64,000 nt of DNA from Verrucomicrobiia bacterium (GTDB lineage: Bacteria; Verrucomicrobiota; Verrucomicrobiia; Limisphaerales; JAEYXS01): the NCBI GenBank assembly GCA_036405135.1, contig DASWYF010000048.1, forward strand, positions 124,001 to 188,000, read 5' to 3'. Within the stretch, counting starts at the first letter, position 1. Each line of letters begins with the position of its first letter. Both the position numbers and the translations under genes were made by a program. The notes under the pieces were generated by a model. It was not told the origin of the DNA. It worked only from the letters and a program-made list of their open reading frames with translations, and searched no databases. This document shows positions 35,374 through 50,214 of the stretch, piece by piece.

Positions 35374-35952
35374 TCAACGATCAGAAGCGAACGGGATATC
35401 ATTGGTAGCCACCGTTACCTTGCCCGGAAAGACATTGGTCTGATACATGCGCAAGCGGGTATAAGCGGCGGGCGGATCGGTGAACTCGAAGATGATCTGT
35501 TCATCCGTCAACCGGTTGGCGCCGGATGTGCCGACATTGATGGAATGAAAATTCACCACCCGTTGTAGACCGAAGTGCTCCTGTCCGGAAGCGGTGATCA
35601 GACTCAGCGAAAAACTCCCGTTCAAGTAACGCCGCTGTTGGAGATCATCCTCCGTGATCGGTTTGTTCAGCAGAACACCCAGCGAGTTCGTGCTGAGCGC
35701 AACGTGTATATACTGATAAGTTTTGAAGCGTGCAGGGACATGGTTTTTAAAAATCTGGTAGAATGCCATTTGTTGACGGTCCCCCATGTGGAAAACCAGA
35801 TTGCTGCCGCGGACCGATTCGATCACCTCAAAATGGCCGCCGCCAGTCAGGGGGAATGTCGGTAATGGTTGATATGAAAAGGCGAACAACACGAGGATGC
35901 CCAACAGTAAAAGTGAGCCACCAATGATAAGATGTCTTTTGGTGTTGGGCAT
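35374..35952 (-). CDS. hypothetical membrane-anchored protein, second of a tandem pair
   Basis: The 192-residue protein has one N-terminal membrane segment (residues 8-27) followed by a beta-rich soluble region with no cysteines or enzyme motifs that I recognise. It follows its upstream neighbour by 3 bp. Both share the order anchor, GGHFEVIES/DGSTLTVVD strand, charged turn, and C-terminal strand pair. That points to an old tandem duplication, but residue identity is low. Function is unknown. The composition looks more AT-rich than that of the flanking uvrC gene. Confidence 0.7.
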   Translation of the reverse strand: MPNTKRHLIIGGSLLLLGILVLFAFSYQPLPTFPLTGGGHFEVIESVRGSNLVFHMGDRQQMAFYQIFKNHVPARFKTYQYIHVALSTNSLGVLLNKPITEDDLQQRRYLNGSFSLSLITASGQEHFGLQRVVNFHSINVGTSGANRLTDEQIIFEFTDPPAAYTRLRMYQTNVFPGKVTVATNDIPFASDR

Positions 35953-35955
35953 GGA

Positions 35956-36480
35956 TTACTTTTTCAACCGCAGCTCGTTCGTGCGGTTCATCAGATAAAA
36001 GCGCAACGTTGGTTCAGGTCCCAAGGGAACCTGAATAACGCATACCATGAACTCTCCTGTTCCGCCCGTGAATCCTTTCATTTGGCCCGAAAACAGATGT
36101 TGGGCCGGATGTTCTTTCCCTTGAGAATCAATGGCCACAATTTGGTTGTTCAAAAGCATGTTGACCAAAGGTGAATTGGCCGGGCCAGTCCGATACCATG
36201 AAATCGTGGAATTATTCGTCGCATCCATGAATCCGGCGTTAAGATGTTTTTGGAGCTCGGTGTCTTTCACCAGCGGCATGAGCGCCTTTTTCCATGGCGC
36301 ACCTATGAACAGCTTTTCGTTCGGGCTTGTCGTGAAATCCACCACTGTCAGAGTAGAACCGTCGTCCAAAGTTATGGCAGGTTCGTTACTCTGGTGAAGA
36401 AAAACCCAACCTCCGATTGCGATGAGCCCCAGCGTAGTCAATGCGATCGCAAGATAACGGCGGGATTTGGGGCTTGGCAT
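35956..36480 (-). CDS. hypothetical membrane-anchored protein, first of a tandem pair
   Basis: The protein of about 174 residues has a basic N-terminus, one membrane segment (about 10-28) and a soluble region without recognisable motifs. The ATG at 36480 is preferred because it places a short basic stretch right before the membrane segment; the frame is open further upstream. With the next gene it forms a two-gene operon of similar architecture. No function can be given. Confidence 0.7.
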   Translation of the reverse strand: MPSPKSRRYLAIALTTLGLIAIGGWVFLHQSNEPAITLDDGSTLTVVDFTTSPNEKLFIGAPWKKALMPLVKDTELQKHLNAGFMDATNNSTISWYRTGPANSPLVNMLLNNQIVAIDSQGKEHPAQHLFSGQMKGFTGGTGEFMVCVIQVPLGPEPTLRFYLMNRTNELRLKK

Positions 36481-36577
36481 CGCCAGACTTCTAGCAAACC
36501 GGGCAGCATTTGAAAAGCCCGTGAGAGATTTCAGATGACACTGCATTCCTGCCCAAGTTAGATAGGGATGATCACCT

Positions 36578-37777: not shown

Positions 37778-39313
37778 ATGCAATCTGAGTCCTCTTCATC
37801 ACGGCGAGATTTTTTGAAAGCCGCAGCAGTCACTGCTGCGGCGATGGGCATTGCTGGTGAAGTGAAAGGACAACAGAAGCCGAAACGCCAATCCGATCTC
37901 ATCCGGAAGGAGAATGCGAAAGAGGGGGCGCTGGACTGGCAATTGACGCGGGTGCGATTGGATAAGACGACGGGGTTTCGTTCGCCAGGGATCGAGGGGT
38001 ATTGCTCGCATCAGAGCATCAAGACGGGGGAGGAATTGCGCATCATGGTGAGCACGATTCCGGCGCGGAAGTTCATGATCGAGTTCTTTCGCATGGGTTA
38101 CTATGGCGGGCGTGGGGCGCGGTTGATGCAGAAGTTGGGACCTTTGGTGAGCAAGACGCAGCTGGTGCCGCCCGTGGGTGAGAATCGTTTGGTGGAATGC
38201 CGCTGGGAGCCGAGTGCGACGTTGAAGATTCCGGCAGATTGGCCGAGCGGCGTGTATCTGGGGCGGTTGACGACAGTGCCGGAGTCGGCAGTGGAACCGT
38301 ATTGGCAGAGTTACATCATCTTCATCGTGCGGGACGAGCGGCCGGCGGATGTGCTTTTCCAATGCAGTGACAATACTTGGCAGGCGTACAACAAGTGGCC
38401 GGATAATTACTCGCTCTATACGGATCCGCGTGGGGCGCATGCGGTGGGTGTGCAAGTGAGCTTTGACCGGCCGTATGGGAAGTATGCGCAGATATTTGAG
38501 CATCCGCTGTCCATCGGTTCAGGCGAATTTCTGCTGTGGGAGTTTACCTTGCTCTATTGGCTGGAGCAGCATGGGTATGATGTGACGTATTGTTCGAACA
38601 GCGATTGCTTGGATGCAGCAAACATCACGCGCTGCAAAACGTTTCTGAGCGTGGGGCATGATGAGTATTGGGATGTGCGGCAGTATGATGCGGTGAAGAA
38701 CAGCATCGAGTCAGGTGTGAATGCGTTGTGGCTTTGTGGCAATTCGGTGTTTGGAGTGACGCCGTTCTCGCCTTCAACGAGTGGCCAGGCGAATCGTATT
38801 TTGACGCGCAAAGGTATTTACGGCGGGTTAACGGATGCAGAGGTGCAAGAAGAGATCCGGGTGTTCACGAAGGATTGGAAGCGGGCGGGGCCGGATGAGA
38901 GCCTGATCATGGGCGCGCGCAGCATTGTTCCATTCAATGGTGGCGGGGACTGGATTTGCACGAAACCAGAGCATTGGATCTTTGAAGGCACCGGGATGAA
39001 GAAGGGAGATGCAATCCCGGGTTTGATCGGCTGGGAGCATCATGGGGCTCCGGCGAAGTTACCAGGGCTGGAGGTAGTGGCGGAAGGGACTTGCTGGCGC
39101 GGCGGAGTGACGCCTGCACATTGGACGGCGACGGTGCATCCGGGGCCGAAGAGGAACATCGTTTTCAATGCGGCCACGATCTTTTGGACTCAGGGATTGT
39201 CCAGTCCACCGGGGCATATTTTGCCGTGGTCGCACTGGAGCCGCCCGCATGGACCGGATGCGCGGGTGCAGAAGATCACGGAGAATGTATTGAAGCGGGC
39301 TTTGAGAAATTGA
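37778..39313 (+). CDS. Tat-exported N,N-dimethylformamidase beta-subunit-like protein
   Basis: The protein of about 511 residues has a clear Tat leader (SSRRDFLKAAAVTAAAMG). The rest resembles the C-terminal domain of the large subunit of N,N-dimethylformamidase: EFFRMGYYGGRGARL, QAYNKWPDNYSLY, and a glutamine-amidotransferase-like part with FLSVGHDEYWD. Proteins of this class are common in Verrucomicrobiota and Planctomycetota, and most have no known substrate. The ATG at 37778 gives the leader directly; a TTG at 37754 is less likely. Confidence 0.75.
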   Translation: MQSESSSSRRDFLKAAAVTAAAMGIAGEVKGQQKPKRQSDLIRKENAKEGALDWQLTRVRLDKTTGFRSPGIEGYCSHQSIKTGEELRIMVSTIPARKFMIEFFRMGYYGGRGARLMQKLGPLVSKTQLVPPVGENRLVECRWEPSATLKIPADWPSGVYLGRLTTVPESAVEPYWQSYIIFIVRDERPADVLFQCSDNTWQAYNKWPDNYSLYTDPRGAHAVGVQVSFDRPYGKYAQIFEHPLSIGSGEFLLWEFTLLYWLEQHGYDVTYCSNSDCLDAANITRCKTFLSVGHDEYWDVRQYDAVKNSIESGVNALWLCGNSVFGVTPFSPSTSGQANRILTRKGIYGGLTDAEVQEEIRVFTKDWKRAGPDESLIMGARSIVPFNGGGDWICTKPEHWIFEGTGMKKGDAIPGLIGWEHHGAPAKLPGLEVVAEGTCWRGGVTPAHWTATVHPGPKRNIVFNAATIFWTQGLSSPPGHILPWSHWSRPHGPDARVQKITENVLKRALRN

Positions 39314-39367
39314 TGAGAGATTTGTGTTTGCGCGAGGAAGGCGGTCGCTTATTCCTTAGACAAGGAT

Positions 39368-41146
39368 ATGGCATTCCAATGTGAAAACTGCGGAAAGGAA
39401 ACATCGCTCAAGGAATTAAAGGTGGTGGAGGCTCTCTCGGGAGATAACCCGCAGCTCTGTGACGTTTGCCAACGATTGAAGTTCAATCACCGGTTTTTAA
39501 TCGGGCTGGGGATAGTTGCGGTTACTTTGGTCGGCTTTTATGGATGGAGGCGTTCTTCTCCTGATTCGTTCTGGCTTTGCTTCATCTGGAATCTGCTGGT
39601 CATCCAGATGTTTCAATATGTTAGCACCATTCCTCATGAGATCGGACATGCCTTAGCGGCCAGACTGGTGGGTGGAAGGGTGGAAAAAATCGTGATCGGG
39701 AATGGCCGAATGGTGGCGAATTTCCGGTTCGGTGGATTACAGTTCGACTTTTGCAGCCAGCCATTCGGTGGGGCGATGTATCCAGGCAGGTTGGAACTCA
39801 AAGGCTGGCGCTGGAAAGGCGTGGTCATCTGGGCGGCCGGACCGCTCGCGAACATAATCTTGGGATTGCTCGCCTTTACTTGGATGCCTGACAAAACAAC
39901 CGCCAAGTTTGATCTGGGTGCCGAGGTTTCGTATTGGATACTTTTCATCATAGCGAATGTCATCATGACATTGGTGAGCTTGATACCTATGGTGATCACG
40001 CGCTGGCCGCATGGTCCCATGGTTAACGATGGTATGGGTTTGGTGCAGTTGATCTTCGAGGGAAAATGGCCATATGCGCCGGTTCGGCAATCACACGTCC
40101 TGACCATGGTTGAATCGCCGTTTCTCAGTTTCCTGAAAATATTTTTCGCGATGCTTTTTGTGATATTGGCGACCACTTTGATCCTGCTGAGCATCGCTCA
40201 TCTGCTATCTGGTTTAGGACGGGGAAATGAAGTATTGAAGCATTTGCTGGGTTCAGCCGCGCTGGTTGGATTTGCCGCAGCTATCTTTTGTCTGACATTT
40301 CGGATGATGAGGCCGTCTCCGCTTCCTGTTCTCGAGCCGGTGAAGAAGGCAGAGGAACAGTTTCAAGCCATGATCTCGGAAGCGGATTGGAATAAGAACA
40401 AGTGGCCTAAAAAAATATCACCACCGATACTGCTCCATAATATCACTTTGCTGTTTAACAGCGGGCAGTTTGAGCAAGGAGAGAAGGAAATCGATGAGGT
40501 GCTGAGGCAAGAGCCGGATAATTTTTGGTTGTTGCTCTGCAAGTCAGACACCTTGGCGGCTCAGAAGAGGTTTGAGGAAGCGGATGTTTTGATTCAGCGG
40601 GTAGTTGACTGGCCTGGCCTTGAATCTGGCTCACGGGTGTATGTGACCATGAACCGTCTCCTGCTTTGGGAGCATCAGGATAAAAAAGAACAGGTGAAAA
40701 CTAGGATGGCAGAGATACTGACAGAGAACTATAGCATTGATGAAAAGGTCTGGTTGTTAGATATGCTGAGCGGATGGCCCTTCCAGCTCAAGAAAATGGA
40801 ATATCTCACCGAAGCCAAGGAGTGGATTCAAACAGCGATAAGGCTGGCCCCGGACGCGATCACTTTACGGGGTACCTATGGAGCCCTGCTCTATGAGTCT
40901 GGTGAACTGGTAGCGGCGGAAACAGTGTTGCATGAGGTGTTTCAAAACAGCAAAGCGGCGCATGACCGGGGCATCAGCGCATTCTATCTGGCTTTACTAG
41001 CCAAGAAAAAGAGAGAATGGAACGAGGCGAGGAGATGGTTGCGGCAAGCGATGCGATGGTATCAGGAACCTTGGATGCTGGAGCGTGCAGATTTGGAATT
41101 CTCGGCGGAACCGCCCAGTGACAGCAAGAAAGAGCCAGTAAAATAG
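39368..41146 (+). CDS. zinc-ribbon, site-2-protease (M50)-like, TPR membrane protein
   Basis: The 592-residue protein starts with a zinc ribbon (C5-x2-C8 and C31-x2-C34). A membrane segment comes next, and then a peptidase M50 core: HEIGH (residues 90-94), AAGPLANIILG (155-166) and a late NDG (220-222), the expected S2P order of metal ligands. More membrane segments follow to about residue 305. The last 270 residues are helical with TPR-like repeats. This would be an intramembrane metalloprotease with cytoplasmic sensor and scaffold parts. The gene looks more AT-rich than its neighbours. Confidence 0.8.
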   Translation: MAFQCENCGKETSLKELKVVEALSGDNPQLCDVCQRLKFNHRFLIGLGIVAVTLVGFYGWRRSSPDSFWLCFIWNLLVIQMFQYVSTIPHEIGHALAARLVGGRVEKIVIGNGRMVANFRFGGLQFDFCSQPFGGAMYPGRLELKGWRWKGVVIWAAGPLANIILGLLAFTWMPDKTTAKFDLGAEVSYWILFIIANVIMTLVSLIPMVITRWPHGPMVNDGMGLVQLIFEGKWPYAPVRQSHVLTMVESPFLSFLKIFFAMLFVILATTLILLSIAHLLSGLGRGNEVLKHLLGSAALVGFAAAIFCLTFRMMRPSPLPVLEPVKKAEEQFQAMISEADWNKNKWPKKISPPILLHNITLLFNSGQFEQGEKEIDEVLRQEPDNFWLLLCKSDTLAAQKRFEEADVLIQRVVDWPGLESGSRVYVTMNRLLLWEHQDKKEQVKTRMAEILTENYSIDEKVWLLDMLSGWPFQLKKMEYLTEAKEWIQTAIRLAPDAITLRGTYGALLYESGELVAAETVLHEVFQNSKAAHDRGISAFYLALLAKKKREWNEARRWLRQAMRWYQEPWMLERADLEFSAEPPSDSKKEPVK

Positions 41147-41240
41147 GGCTTTTTGCCGCCCGTTCTGGTTTGACGTGTGGCTGGGCTTGGGTTCATGCTT
41201 TGCCTCAGGCCAGAAAACGTTCCAACCAGTGCCAGTCATT

Positions 41241-48018: not shown

Positions 48019-50214
48019 TCATGTCTGGAGCGGAGTCTTCAGCTCGGCTGGCGCACTCTTCGCGAGCATCACGGTTTGGTCGGCCTCGGCATTGCTCTCG
48101 CGCCAAGGCACCTCATAGATGGGCACGGGGTCTTTGATGCCTTTGACCATCACGGGAGGAAGACTGGCGCATTTGGCGGCAAGCTCCGGCTCGAATTTTT
48201 GAAGTTCTTTGAAAGTCGCTTCGCCGATGATGATACGGCCGCGACCGGAGACGCCTTCCAAGCGGCTGGCCAAGTTCACTTCGCGGCCAAACACCGTGTA
48301 GTTCAATATGTGTTTATCGGAACCCATCAAACCCACGATGCAGATCCCGGTATTGATGCCCGTGCCCAAGGAGAGCAGCGGCAGCATAGGCAGAGGATAC
48401 TTTCCCTCCTCAGCGCGCTTCTCGTTTTCCTGCTCGCGCACCTTGTTTTTCTCGGCACGGTCCACGTTCAGCTTGTGCATCGCGCGCTGAGCATCGATGG
48501 CGGCTTGCACGCAAGATACGGCGTGCTGCTCATTCGGCGTGGGCGCGCCCCAAAAGGCCATCACGCAATCGCCCATGTATTTATCCAGCGTGCCATTGTG
48601 CAGCTTGATCTGGTCGGCGATGGTGGCGAGGTAGAGATTCACCGTCTCCAAAGTATCTTGGGCGGAATGGTCGAAATAAGCTTCCGCTGCCGCGCCTTGA
48701 AGATTGCTTTCTCGGACGAATTTTTCAGCGTTCGCCTGATTTGTATCCGTCATCTGGGTGAATCCGCGCACGTCAGAGAAGAACACCGTGATATGGCGGC
48801 GGCTGCCGGAGAGGTTCAGCTTCTCGGCGGTGAGCAGCTCGTTCACGACGTTTGGTGACACGAGTTTGGAGAACACGGCCTTGACGCGCTTTTTTTCACC
48901 CTCCACGAACACGACAAGATAGGTGACAAGGGCTACATGTGTGAGGAAGTTGCCGCCGATCACTGGCAGCGTGATCGGGAGCCAGTAGCGGTTGCCTACG
49001 TAAAGGCTCATCGCCGCCAGGATGTAAAACGCGCCAACAACCACAACCATGACGGACGGCCAGGGCGGGGGGAGGCGCAGGGTGAACCAAGTGCTCAGGA
49101 TGCCGAGCAGGACGATAAGCAAAATCTCCGTGAACATGCCGCTGCGGCGGACGAAGTCGCCGGTGATCACCGCGTTCGCCACATTCCAGTGCTTGCTGAC
49201 CAGATACGTTTCTTTTTCCAGTGCGGTGGCACCGATGTCCGAAATGTTGTTGCCCGCGCCGATGGAGCCGATGACGACGAGCTTGTCTTTGAAGGGGGTG
49301 TCGCCGCCGTGAAGCGTCTTGTCCTCGCGGAAGGTTTTCAGATAATCGCGATACTCTTCCATGGAGCGGTTCCGGCGCAGATGGTCGAGATTCAGCAGGA
49401 GGGTGACAGAGACTTGGGTGAGGCGGTCGGAATCGTTCCACGGCAGGCTCCAGTTAACGTAGAAAAACCCTTCCGAATCCAGCGGAATGATACGTTGGAC
49501 ACCATCGCCCAAGAGAATGATGCGATCATCCTGAACGATGCTCCGGCTCAGATCGAGTCCCAGCTCCTTGGCAGCGATTTGGATGCCCATGTGCCAGAGC
49601 CGCTTGCCTTCGGCGGGATCATCTTTGAACGGGCGGGCGCGACGTAAAACACCATCTGCATCCTTGTCGCTCGTAGCATGGCTGACGGCCATGGCATTGG
49701 TGCGGAACAGGTCGTTCGGATAGATCGGCTGCCAGACGTTGGTGTAAGTCTCACCGAAGGTGGCCAGGATGACACGGTCCGAGTTCTTCAATTCTTGGGC
49801 GAAGAAGGCGTCGGAACTGATCTCCTTGCCATCGGGGAGCTTTACGTTTGTTTCTTCATCCGGAGCCTGTAACTCGGAAAAAAGAACATCGAATGCGATT
49901 GCTTTGGCGCCTTGGGCGGTCAACTCGCGGACGACTTTTCCATAAAGCTGTCGTGGCCAAGGCCATTCGTAGCCCAAAGCTTCGTTGATATCTTTCAAGC
50001 TGAGATCGTCGATGAAGACGGCGCCCAAGTTGGTAGATGTGGTGGAGGGGTATTCGGCGGCCTTCTTGACGCGCCAGTCGTAGGTGAGATTCTCCACCTG
50101 TTCCACCACTTGCAGGGCCGGGACATCACGCTGGAAGATGCGGGCGAGGCAGAGCGTACAGATAACGAACGCCGCAATGATCAGGGGCAGGTTTTTCTGA
50201 AGTCGGGCGTTCAC
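48019..50214 (-). CDS. CHASE2-domain class III adenylate/guanylate cyclase
   Basis: The 731-residue protein has an N-terminal membrane segment, a periplasmic CHASE2 domain (about 35-340; VFIDDLSLKDI and FDVLFSE are typical), about three further membrane segments, and a class III cyclase domain (about 450-690). ITVFFSDVRGFT holds one metal aspartate, KYMGDCVMAFWGAP the second, and YTVFGREVNLASRLE the transition-state Asn/Arg. Between the first and second metal motifs lie about 30 extra residues (EKFVRESNLQGAAAEAYFDH). It should make cAMP in response to an envelope signal. It follows the FecR gene. Confidence 0.92.
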   Translation of the reverse strand: MNARLQKNLPLIIAAFVICTLCLARIFQRDVPALQVVEQVENLTYDWRVKKAAEYPSTTSTNLGAVFIDDLSLKDINEALGYEWPWPRQLYGKVVRELTAQGAKAIAFDVLFSELQAPDEETNVKLPDGKEISSDAFFAQELKNSDRVILATFGETYTNVWQPIYPNDLFRTNAMAVSHATSDKDADGVLRRARPFKDDPAEGKRLWHMGIQIAAKELGLDLSRSIVQDDRIILLGDGVQRIIPLDSEGFFYVNWSLPWNDSDRLTQVSVTLLLNLDHLRRNRSMEEYRDYLKTFREDKTLHGGDTPFKDKLVVIGSIGAGNNISDIGATALEKETYLVSKHWNVANAVITGDFVRRSGMFTEILLIVLLGILSTWFTLRLPPPWPSVMVVVVGAFYILAAMSLYVGNRYWLPITLPVIGGNFLTHVALVTYLVVFVEGEKKRVKAVFSKLVSPNVVNELLTAEKLNLSGSRRHITVFFSDVRGFTQMTDTNQANAEKFVRESNLQGAAAEAYFDHSAQDTLETVNLYLATIADQIKLHNGTLDKYMGDCVMAFWGAPTPNEQHAVSCVQAAIDAQRAMHKLNVDRAEKNKVREQENEKRAEEGKYPLPMLPLLSLGTGINTGICIVGLMGSDKHILNYTVFGREVNLASRLEGVSGRGRIIIGEATFKELQKFEPELAAKCASLPPVMVKGIKDPVPIYEVPWRESNAEADQTVMLAKSAPAELKTPLQT

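Follow-up and report, generated by a model that had tools for sequence, protein, structure and literature searches.

A ribbon-S2P-TPR protein from a Verrucomicrobiia bacterium and its relatives

Described S2P proteases and TPR adaptors

The passages of a 2023 review that treat S2P grouping (PMC10202637) distinguish proteins with a PDZ domain (group I), proteins with a CBS domain (group III) and two groups without an added domain. For SpoIVFB, which belongs to group III together with mjS2P, the published account places a CBS domain beneath the TM helices, has the interdomain linker in contact with pro-sigmaK, and describes the substrate as being held by beta-sheet augmentation, in the portion of the paper drawn on here (PMC11486902). 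The protein described in the following is encoded in the window, i.e. the whole stretch of 64,000 nucleotides that was analysed. It shares the S2P core with SpoIVFB and mjS2P, and its six TM helices, the HExxH on TM2, the re-entrant element between TM2 and TM3 and the C-terminal domain past TM6 have their counterparts in the cited part of the SpoIVFB account (PMC11486902). It differs from both in carrying a TPR domain in place of the CBS domain, in an added N-terminal four-cysteine ribbon, and in an [NST]DG motif that follows a longer loop; no CBS domain was among its Pfam matches at E ≤ 1. Furthermore, eight of the 12 aligned family members lack TM5 and TM6. The analogy between the CBS and TPR domains is loose, because the CBS domain, according to the same part of that account, contacts the substrate only to a limited degree and is dispensable (PMC11486902).

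RseP represents group I. The modelled core of the window protein (residues 68-233) shares its catalytic fold: superposed on 7w6y, the RseP structure from Kangiella, it aligns 151 residues at an rmsd of 3.7 (Z 14.8). TIGR00054 matches locally at residues 72-135. However, this match reaches 24.9 bits against a cut-off of 147.55, and the PDZ domain, a feature of RseP, was absent from the Pfam matches at E ≤ 1.

Two TPR proteins that serve proteases are also comparable. LbcA is described as an outer-membrane lipoprotein of Pseudomonas and as the TPR partner of CtpA, a C-terminal processing protease. It is the best structural match of the TPR domain from a short-form relative in genome G027 (Z 16.0, rmsd 3.1, 192 residues aligned), with many unrelated TPRs lying within 1-2 Z. 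LbcA is, however, a separate protein and CtpA is not an S2P, whereas ribbon, S2P and TPR form one chain here. LapB/YciM, a partner of FtsH, combines TPRs with a C-terminal rubredoxin and is likewise a separate protein. The likeness lies in the pairing of TPRs with a small Cys4 metal site, next to a metalloprotease of the membrane; the relation in sequence is a ribbon match below the cut-off in one relative.

Also close in architecture are ribbonless S2P-TPR proteins of the same class, in which the frame of an M50 core continues into TPRs, in many cases with a GTRG/GTLG repeat. They differ in the missing ribbon and in the residue at the GPxxN position (D, S or N), and three of them carry HExxR. 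A description of a ribbon-S2P-TPR protein was not found in searches of open-licence papers.

Modules and predicted structure of the window protein

The gene is an uninterrupted open reading frame that encodes 592 amino acids plus stop (Table 1). Its ATG at 39368 opens the sequence MAFQCENCG, and most relatives likewise start shortly before the first CxxC. Pfam assigns Peptidase_M50 to residues 85-223 (E 4.3e-14, 52.8 bits against a cut-off of 27.2), while TPR_19 (E 2.9e-08) and TPR_2 (E 3.2e-07) both match above cut-off between residues 365 and 564. The initial annotation, made from the sequence, had reported all three modules in a single chain, and this observation is confirmed. It had also pictured the protease as framed by the ribbon and TPR-like helices. 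The TPR assignment stands; two further TM helices precede the TPRs.

Table 1. Features of the ribbon-S2P-TPR gene and its surroundings (positions in the window)
Feature	Position	Strand	Basis
Whole gene, ribbon-S2P-TPR protein	39368..41146	+	open frame; Pfam M50 and TPR above cut-off
N-terminal four-cysteine ribbon (C5, C8, C31, C34)	39368..39469	+	cysteines in 12/12 aligned ribbon-bearing members; beta hairpin in G027 model
TM1 (residues 42-61)	39491..39550	+	hydropathy; model helix
TM2 (68-100), bears HEIGH	39569..39667	+	model helix; missed by Kyte-Doolittle scan
HEIGH zinc-binding motif (residues 90-94)	39635..39649	+	H90, E91, H94 in 12/12 ribbon-bearing members
Long beta hairpin (105-139), S2P re-entrant sheet type	39680..39784	+	two strands in window and G027 models
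TM3 (147-171) with AAGPLAN	39806..39880	+	hydropathy and model
TM4 (189-205)	39932..39982	+	hydropathy and model
NDG third motif (220-222), D221 as predicted third zinc ligand	40025..40033	+	D in 17/17 rows of the wider alignment
Extra TM hairpin TM5-TM6 (251-281, 286-313)	40118..40306	+	hydropathy; 4/12 aligned ribbon-bearing members
TPR solenoid, about six helix pairs plus cap (352-578)	40421..41101	+	Pfam; model helices; TPR structures Z 14-16
Stretch missing between the same two flanking genes in G001 and G002	39305..41149	+	blastn HSP ends

Conservation was judged on 12 of the 16 ribbon-bearing genomes, three close congeners and one masked copy being left out. The annotation had named HEIGH, AAGPLANIILG and NDG as a complete S2P active-site set, and had made the value of the combination as a functional unit depend on conserved ribbon cysteines and a conserved NDG. 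C5, C8, C31, C34, H90, E91, H94, N162, N197, P207 and D221 are invariant in all 12 members. The combination thus withstands that check, except that G222 of NDG is glycine in 10 of them, and in 15 of the 17 rows of the wider alignment. The third motif is better written as N/S-L-x-P, a longer loop and [NST]-D-[GMA], with N, S or T rather than L ahead of DG. Other S2Ps in these genomes read NLLPIYPLDGG (L011, L013) or, in the RseP of the window genome, NMLPVPVLDGG; S/TDG forms resembling the third motif occur in other M50 proteins. L011, L012 and L013, found in G007, G017 and G012 of the same order, are of a different S2P type (NLLPIYPLDGG) with C-terminal cysteine-rich ribbons.

The ribbon, also pointed out in the annotation, is spaced CxxC-x22-CxxC within the first 34 residues. 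The pattern C-x2-C-x(10-30)-C-x2-C did not occur in the first 50 residues of any of 20000 shuffles of the window protein, compared with 255 of 20000 that held HExxH at any position. Among curated ribbon families Zn_ribbon_8 was the best match to the window ribbon (E 0.011) and did not reach the cut-off of that family. In the model of the G027 protein, strands at 19-22 and 29-32 place two CxxC knuckles on a beta hairpin. The protein in G041 (L071, 4156-4371) has an additional classical zinc ribbon ahead of the family ribbon.

Full-chain structure prediction, suggested as a check in the annotation, gave a pLDDT of 74.6 and a pTM of 0.52 for the window protein, the ribbon blocks reaching about 52-68 and both the ribbon and TM5-TM6 being weak. 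The G027 short form, which is 17-49% identical to the 16 rows aligned with it, was modelled with a pLDDT of 92.6 and a pTM of 0.84; this model spans the ribbon, four TM helices, the hairpin and the TPR. Its core aligns with RseP over 143 residues (rmsd 3.4, Z 14.3). Motifs, re-entrant beta hairpin and core fold all correspond to S2P, and the HExxH on a TM helix, the predicted zinc-binding aspartate D221 and a three-TM core place the protein in the S2P/M50 family, as a putative protease.

In S2P proteins, the first TM helix of the core runs inwards and HExxH lies close to the cytosolic side. This helix corresponds to TM2 in the window protein; therefore, TM1 should run outwards and the ribbon should be cytosolic. 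The chain would be cytosolic again after TM4, and the optional TM5-TM6 pair would bring it back to the cytosol. Over the 12 members, K/R and D/E were counted as 108 versus 31 between TM2 and TM3, and 93 versus 63 in the ribbon. The corresponding counts are 6 versus 14 in the TM1-TM2 loop and 15 versus 20 in the TM3-TM4 loop. Such a charge distribution fits a cytosolic location of the ribbon, the hairpin and the TPR.

On balance, the protein is probably an intramembrane zinc metalloprotease of S2P (M50) fold that carries cytosolic, client-selecting adaptor parts in the same chain. Ribbon and TPR, both predicted to be cytosolic, would capture a single-pass client by its cytosolic end, either directly or through a partner that holds the client. 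The membrane segment of the client would then be placed along the beta hairpin and cut at the zinc site formed by HExxH and D221, releasing a piece. SpoIVFB is the nearest described model for such a mechanism.

The TPR domain has also been considered as a sensor that opens the protease on binding a small peptide or ligand, with the ribbon as a metal or redox gauge. The four conserved cysteines are compatible with such a gauge, and Rap-type peptide-receptor TPRs rank among the highest-scoring matches of the window model (for RapI, Z 16.3 over 227 aligned residues at an rmsd of 5.9). These matches, however, are level with many unrelated TPRs and their rmsd is high, and a structural zinc explains the cysteines equally well, which makes a sensor very doubtful. 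A HOP-like carboxylate clamp, for which Lys/Asn are expected in the first helix, was also looked for in the last TPRs; by eye, these residues are absent from the G027 sequence, and the candidate was rejected.

Distribution, selection and the wider family

A first search of 58 genomes at a threshold of E ≤ 0.001 returned 11 genomes with some match; two weak ones whose frames were read (L009, L010) are ordinary RseP-like proteins. The order was then covered with a five-row alignment as query, and 20 of 320 genomes matched at E ≤ 1e-18. Ribbon, protease and TPR lie in a single open frame in 14 of these 20, namely G000, G018, G027, G041, G050, G486, G513, G517, G604, G645, G679, G680, G685 and G687. 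The G511 frame has ribbon and protease and stops inside the TPR, while in G510 the ribbon is present and the frame is split by a masked stretch. The G022 copy is disrupted by stops or frameshifts, G453 holds the TPR end only, and G503 has a partial protease frame without the ribbon. The fusion is thus uncommon, as the annotation had stated, yet it is not confined to the window genome. In G667 (L065, 1102-2112), a 337-aa frame contains TM helices and a TPR domain resembling that of the family, and no protease domain.

Selection was estimated from the four congeners G679, G680, G685 and G687, which form six pairs. The full-length dN/dS is 0.155-0.276 in all six. By part, it is 0.135-0.226 for the protease and 0.122-0.249 for the TPR, and looser for TM5-TM6 (0.069-0.730); the ribbon shows too few changes among the four for a judgement. 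Going by these ratios, the gene is under purifying selection in these congeners. A chance product or artefact, be it a frame fusion, an assembly error or a decaying gene, might be suspected from the two congeners of the window genome that are without the gene and from the broken G022 copy. Yet the same three-part frame occurs in 14 genomes and shows purifying selection, and since the conserved frames already refute an artefact, it is regarded as extremely improbable.

Beyond the ribbon-bearing members, M50-TPR frames without a ribbon were found in the class or phylum in G346, G328, G274 (three), G783, G750, G830 and G833, and M50-only frames for example in G867, G806, G841 and G808 (one). Many further phylum-wide matches span the M50 core alone and are comparable to the weak L009 and L010 matches. 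The three paralogs in G274 (L085, 7131-8288; L086, 7076-8197; L087, 6596-7723) have HExxR and keep D221, and are possible pseudoproteases. Because they retain the TPR with HExxR, the wider family may in part bind rather than cut. Extended to the whole family, this would make the protein mainly a membrane scaffold whose TPR and ribbon bring a complex together, with proteolysis lost or of secondary importance. The protease-less TPR relative in G667 would agree with a scaffold as well. Nevertheless, HExxH and the aspartate are kept in all 12 aligned ribbon-bearing members, and the low dN/dS of the protease part likewise speaks against loss of its function, so that a scaffold is judged distinctly unlikely.

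A conserved S2P form with TPR and ribbon offers a compact system for studying how S2Ps choose their clients. The putative adaptor can be removed or exchanged inside a single chain, and nature provides relatives that lack the ribbon, TM5-TM6 or the second histidine.

In both trees the ribbon-bearing rows are split over more than one clade, which would fit repeated gain or loss of the ribbon, or a mere lack of signal. The S2P-core tree has weak support in its deep branches, and the PDZ insert throws the RseP rows out of alignment at the third motif; the tree was therefore set aside. A conserved-peptide scan of all sequenced genomes with a four-member alignment returned two loci, both from Verrucomicrobia. 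The scan missed known members and therefore gives no proof that the family is confined to Verrucomicrobia. Two plasmid matches were rejected as family members, both being short RseP-like proteins without ribbon or TPR.

Genomic context and proposed role

In the window, the gene is flanked on the same strand by two genes, one for a DMFA2_C protein that carries a TAT signal and one for a SASA esterase; a T2SSE/PilT-like ATPase follows on the minus strand. UvrC (assigned by eye from the sequence) and FabH- and PlsX-type families lie further off. The annotation had noted that an anti-sigma factor or substrate gene is missing next to the protease. In agreement, the window proteins scanned by Pfam included no sigma or anti-sigma gene and no obvious substrate gene next to the protease. 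The same held for 20 neighbour proteins from 10 relative loci, in which the L078 and L079 proteins are not always the nearest frame. Neighbours were also compared all against all between the window and 18 relative loci, of which 11 are ribbon-bearing (L077 with a truncated TPR), L081 is masked, L082 is broken and five are ribbonless. Among the matches listed, no neighbour recurs: the S2P is the sole widely shared protein and others join two or three loci, the frames stemming from a crude ORF picker that chose wrong frames at the L080 S2P gene and probably at other GC-rich loci. The client gene must presumably sit elsewhere in the genome, and the S2P gene is an accessory single-gene trait.

In G001 and G002, both congeneric genomes searched, orthologs of the DMFA2 and SASA genes are 84-90% identical and adjoin without the S2P gene. 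The blastn homology breaks off at 39304; it starts again at 41150 in G002, with 25 bases between the flanks, and at 41238 in G001. As the flanking genes are adjacent in both congeners, the gene was gained or lost as one unit. Its GC content is 0.500, whereas the genes on either side have 0.566 and 0.574 and the window as a whole 0.561, which leans towards gain over loss. This signal is weakened by two adjacent small genes on the minus strand (35374-35952 and 35956-36546), which are about as AT-rich (GC 0.509 and 0.492, within 35374-36429). Terminal repeats that could mark the borders of a mobile element were absent in a repeat search of 39280-41200, and promoter-like and terminator-like counts were not above those of shuffles. 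Each of the two small minus-strand proteins has a single N-terminal hydrophobic stretch and no Pfam family, and nothing was found that links them to the protease.

Besides an RseP, the window genome encodes a minimal S2P of 220 aa and an S2P-containing protein of 722 aa. Therefore, the ribbon-S2P-TPR protein is not the housekeeping S2P. An alternative role is that of a general membrane clean-up protease for signal-peptide remnants and misfolded single-pass proteins, with TPR and ribbon docking to a chaperone, the translocon or an FtsH-like protease. It would suit an orphan gene that has no recurrent neighbour among the matches listed, the TPR resembles adaptor TPRs such as LbcA, and LapB, with TPR plus rubredoxin, serves the membrane protease FtsH. 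On the other hand, a gene with matches in 20 of the 320 genomes searched within the order and absent from both congeners is a poor fit to broad housekeeping, for which the window genome has its own RseP. A clean-up role is accordingly unlikely.

Under the favoured reading of a protease with built-in adaptor parts, it is tentatively proposed that these proteins could constitute a separate S2P group. The client would be recognised inside the cell by the built-in TPR/zinc module, cleavage would be initiated on the cytosolic side with no need for a site-1 protease, and the single accessory gene would come and go as a unit between otherwise adjacent genes.

A defence role was dismissed, as the window protein matched no PADLOC family and the G027 protein gave one match at E 0.076. 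The 722-aa protein of the window genome (L117, G000:C22:338707) contains an M50 domain and looks by eye like an HlyD-type fusion. A CHASE2-adenylate/guanylate cyclase protein is encoded at 48019-50214 on the minus strand of the window.
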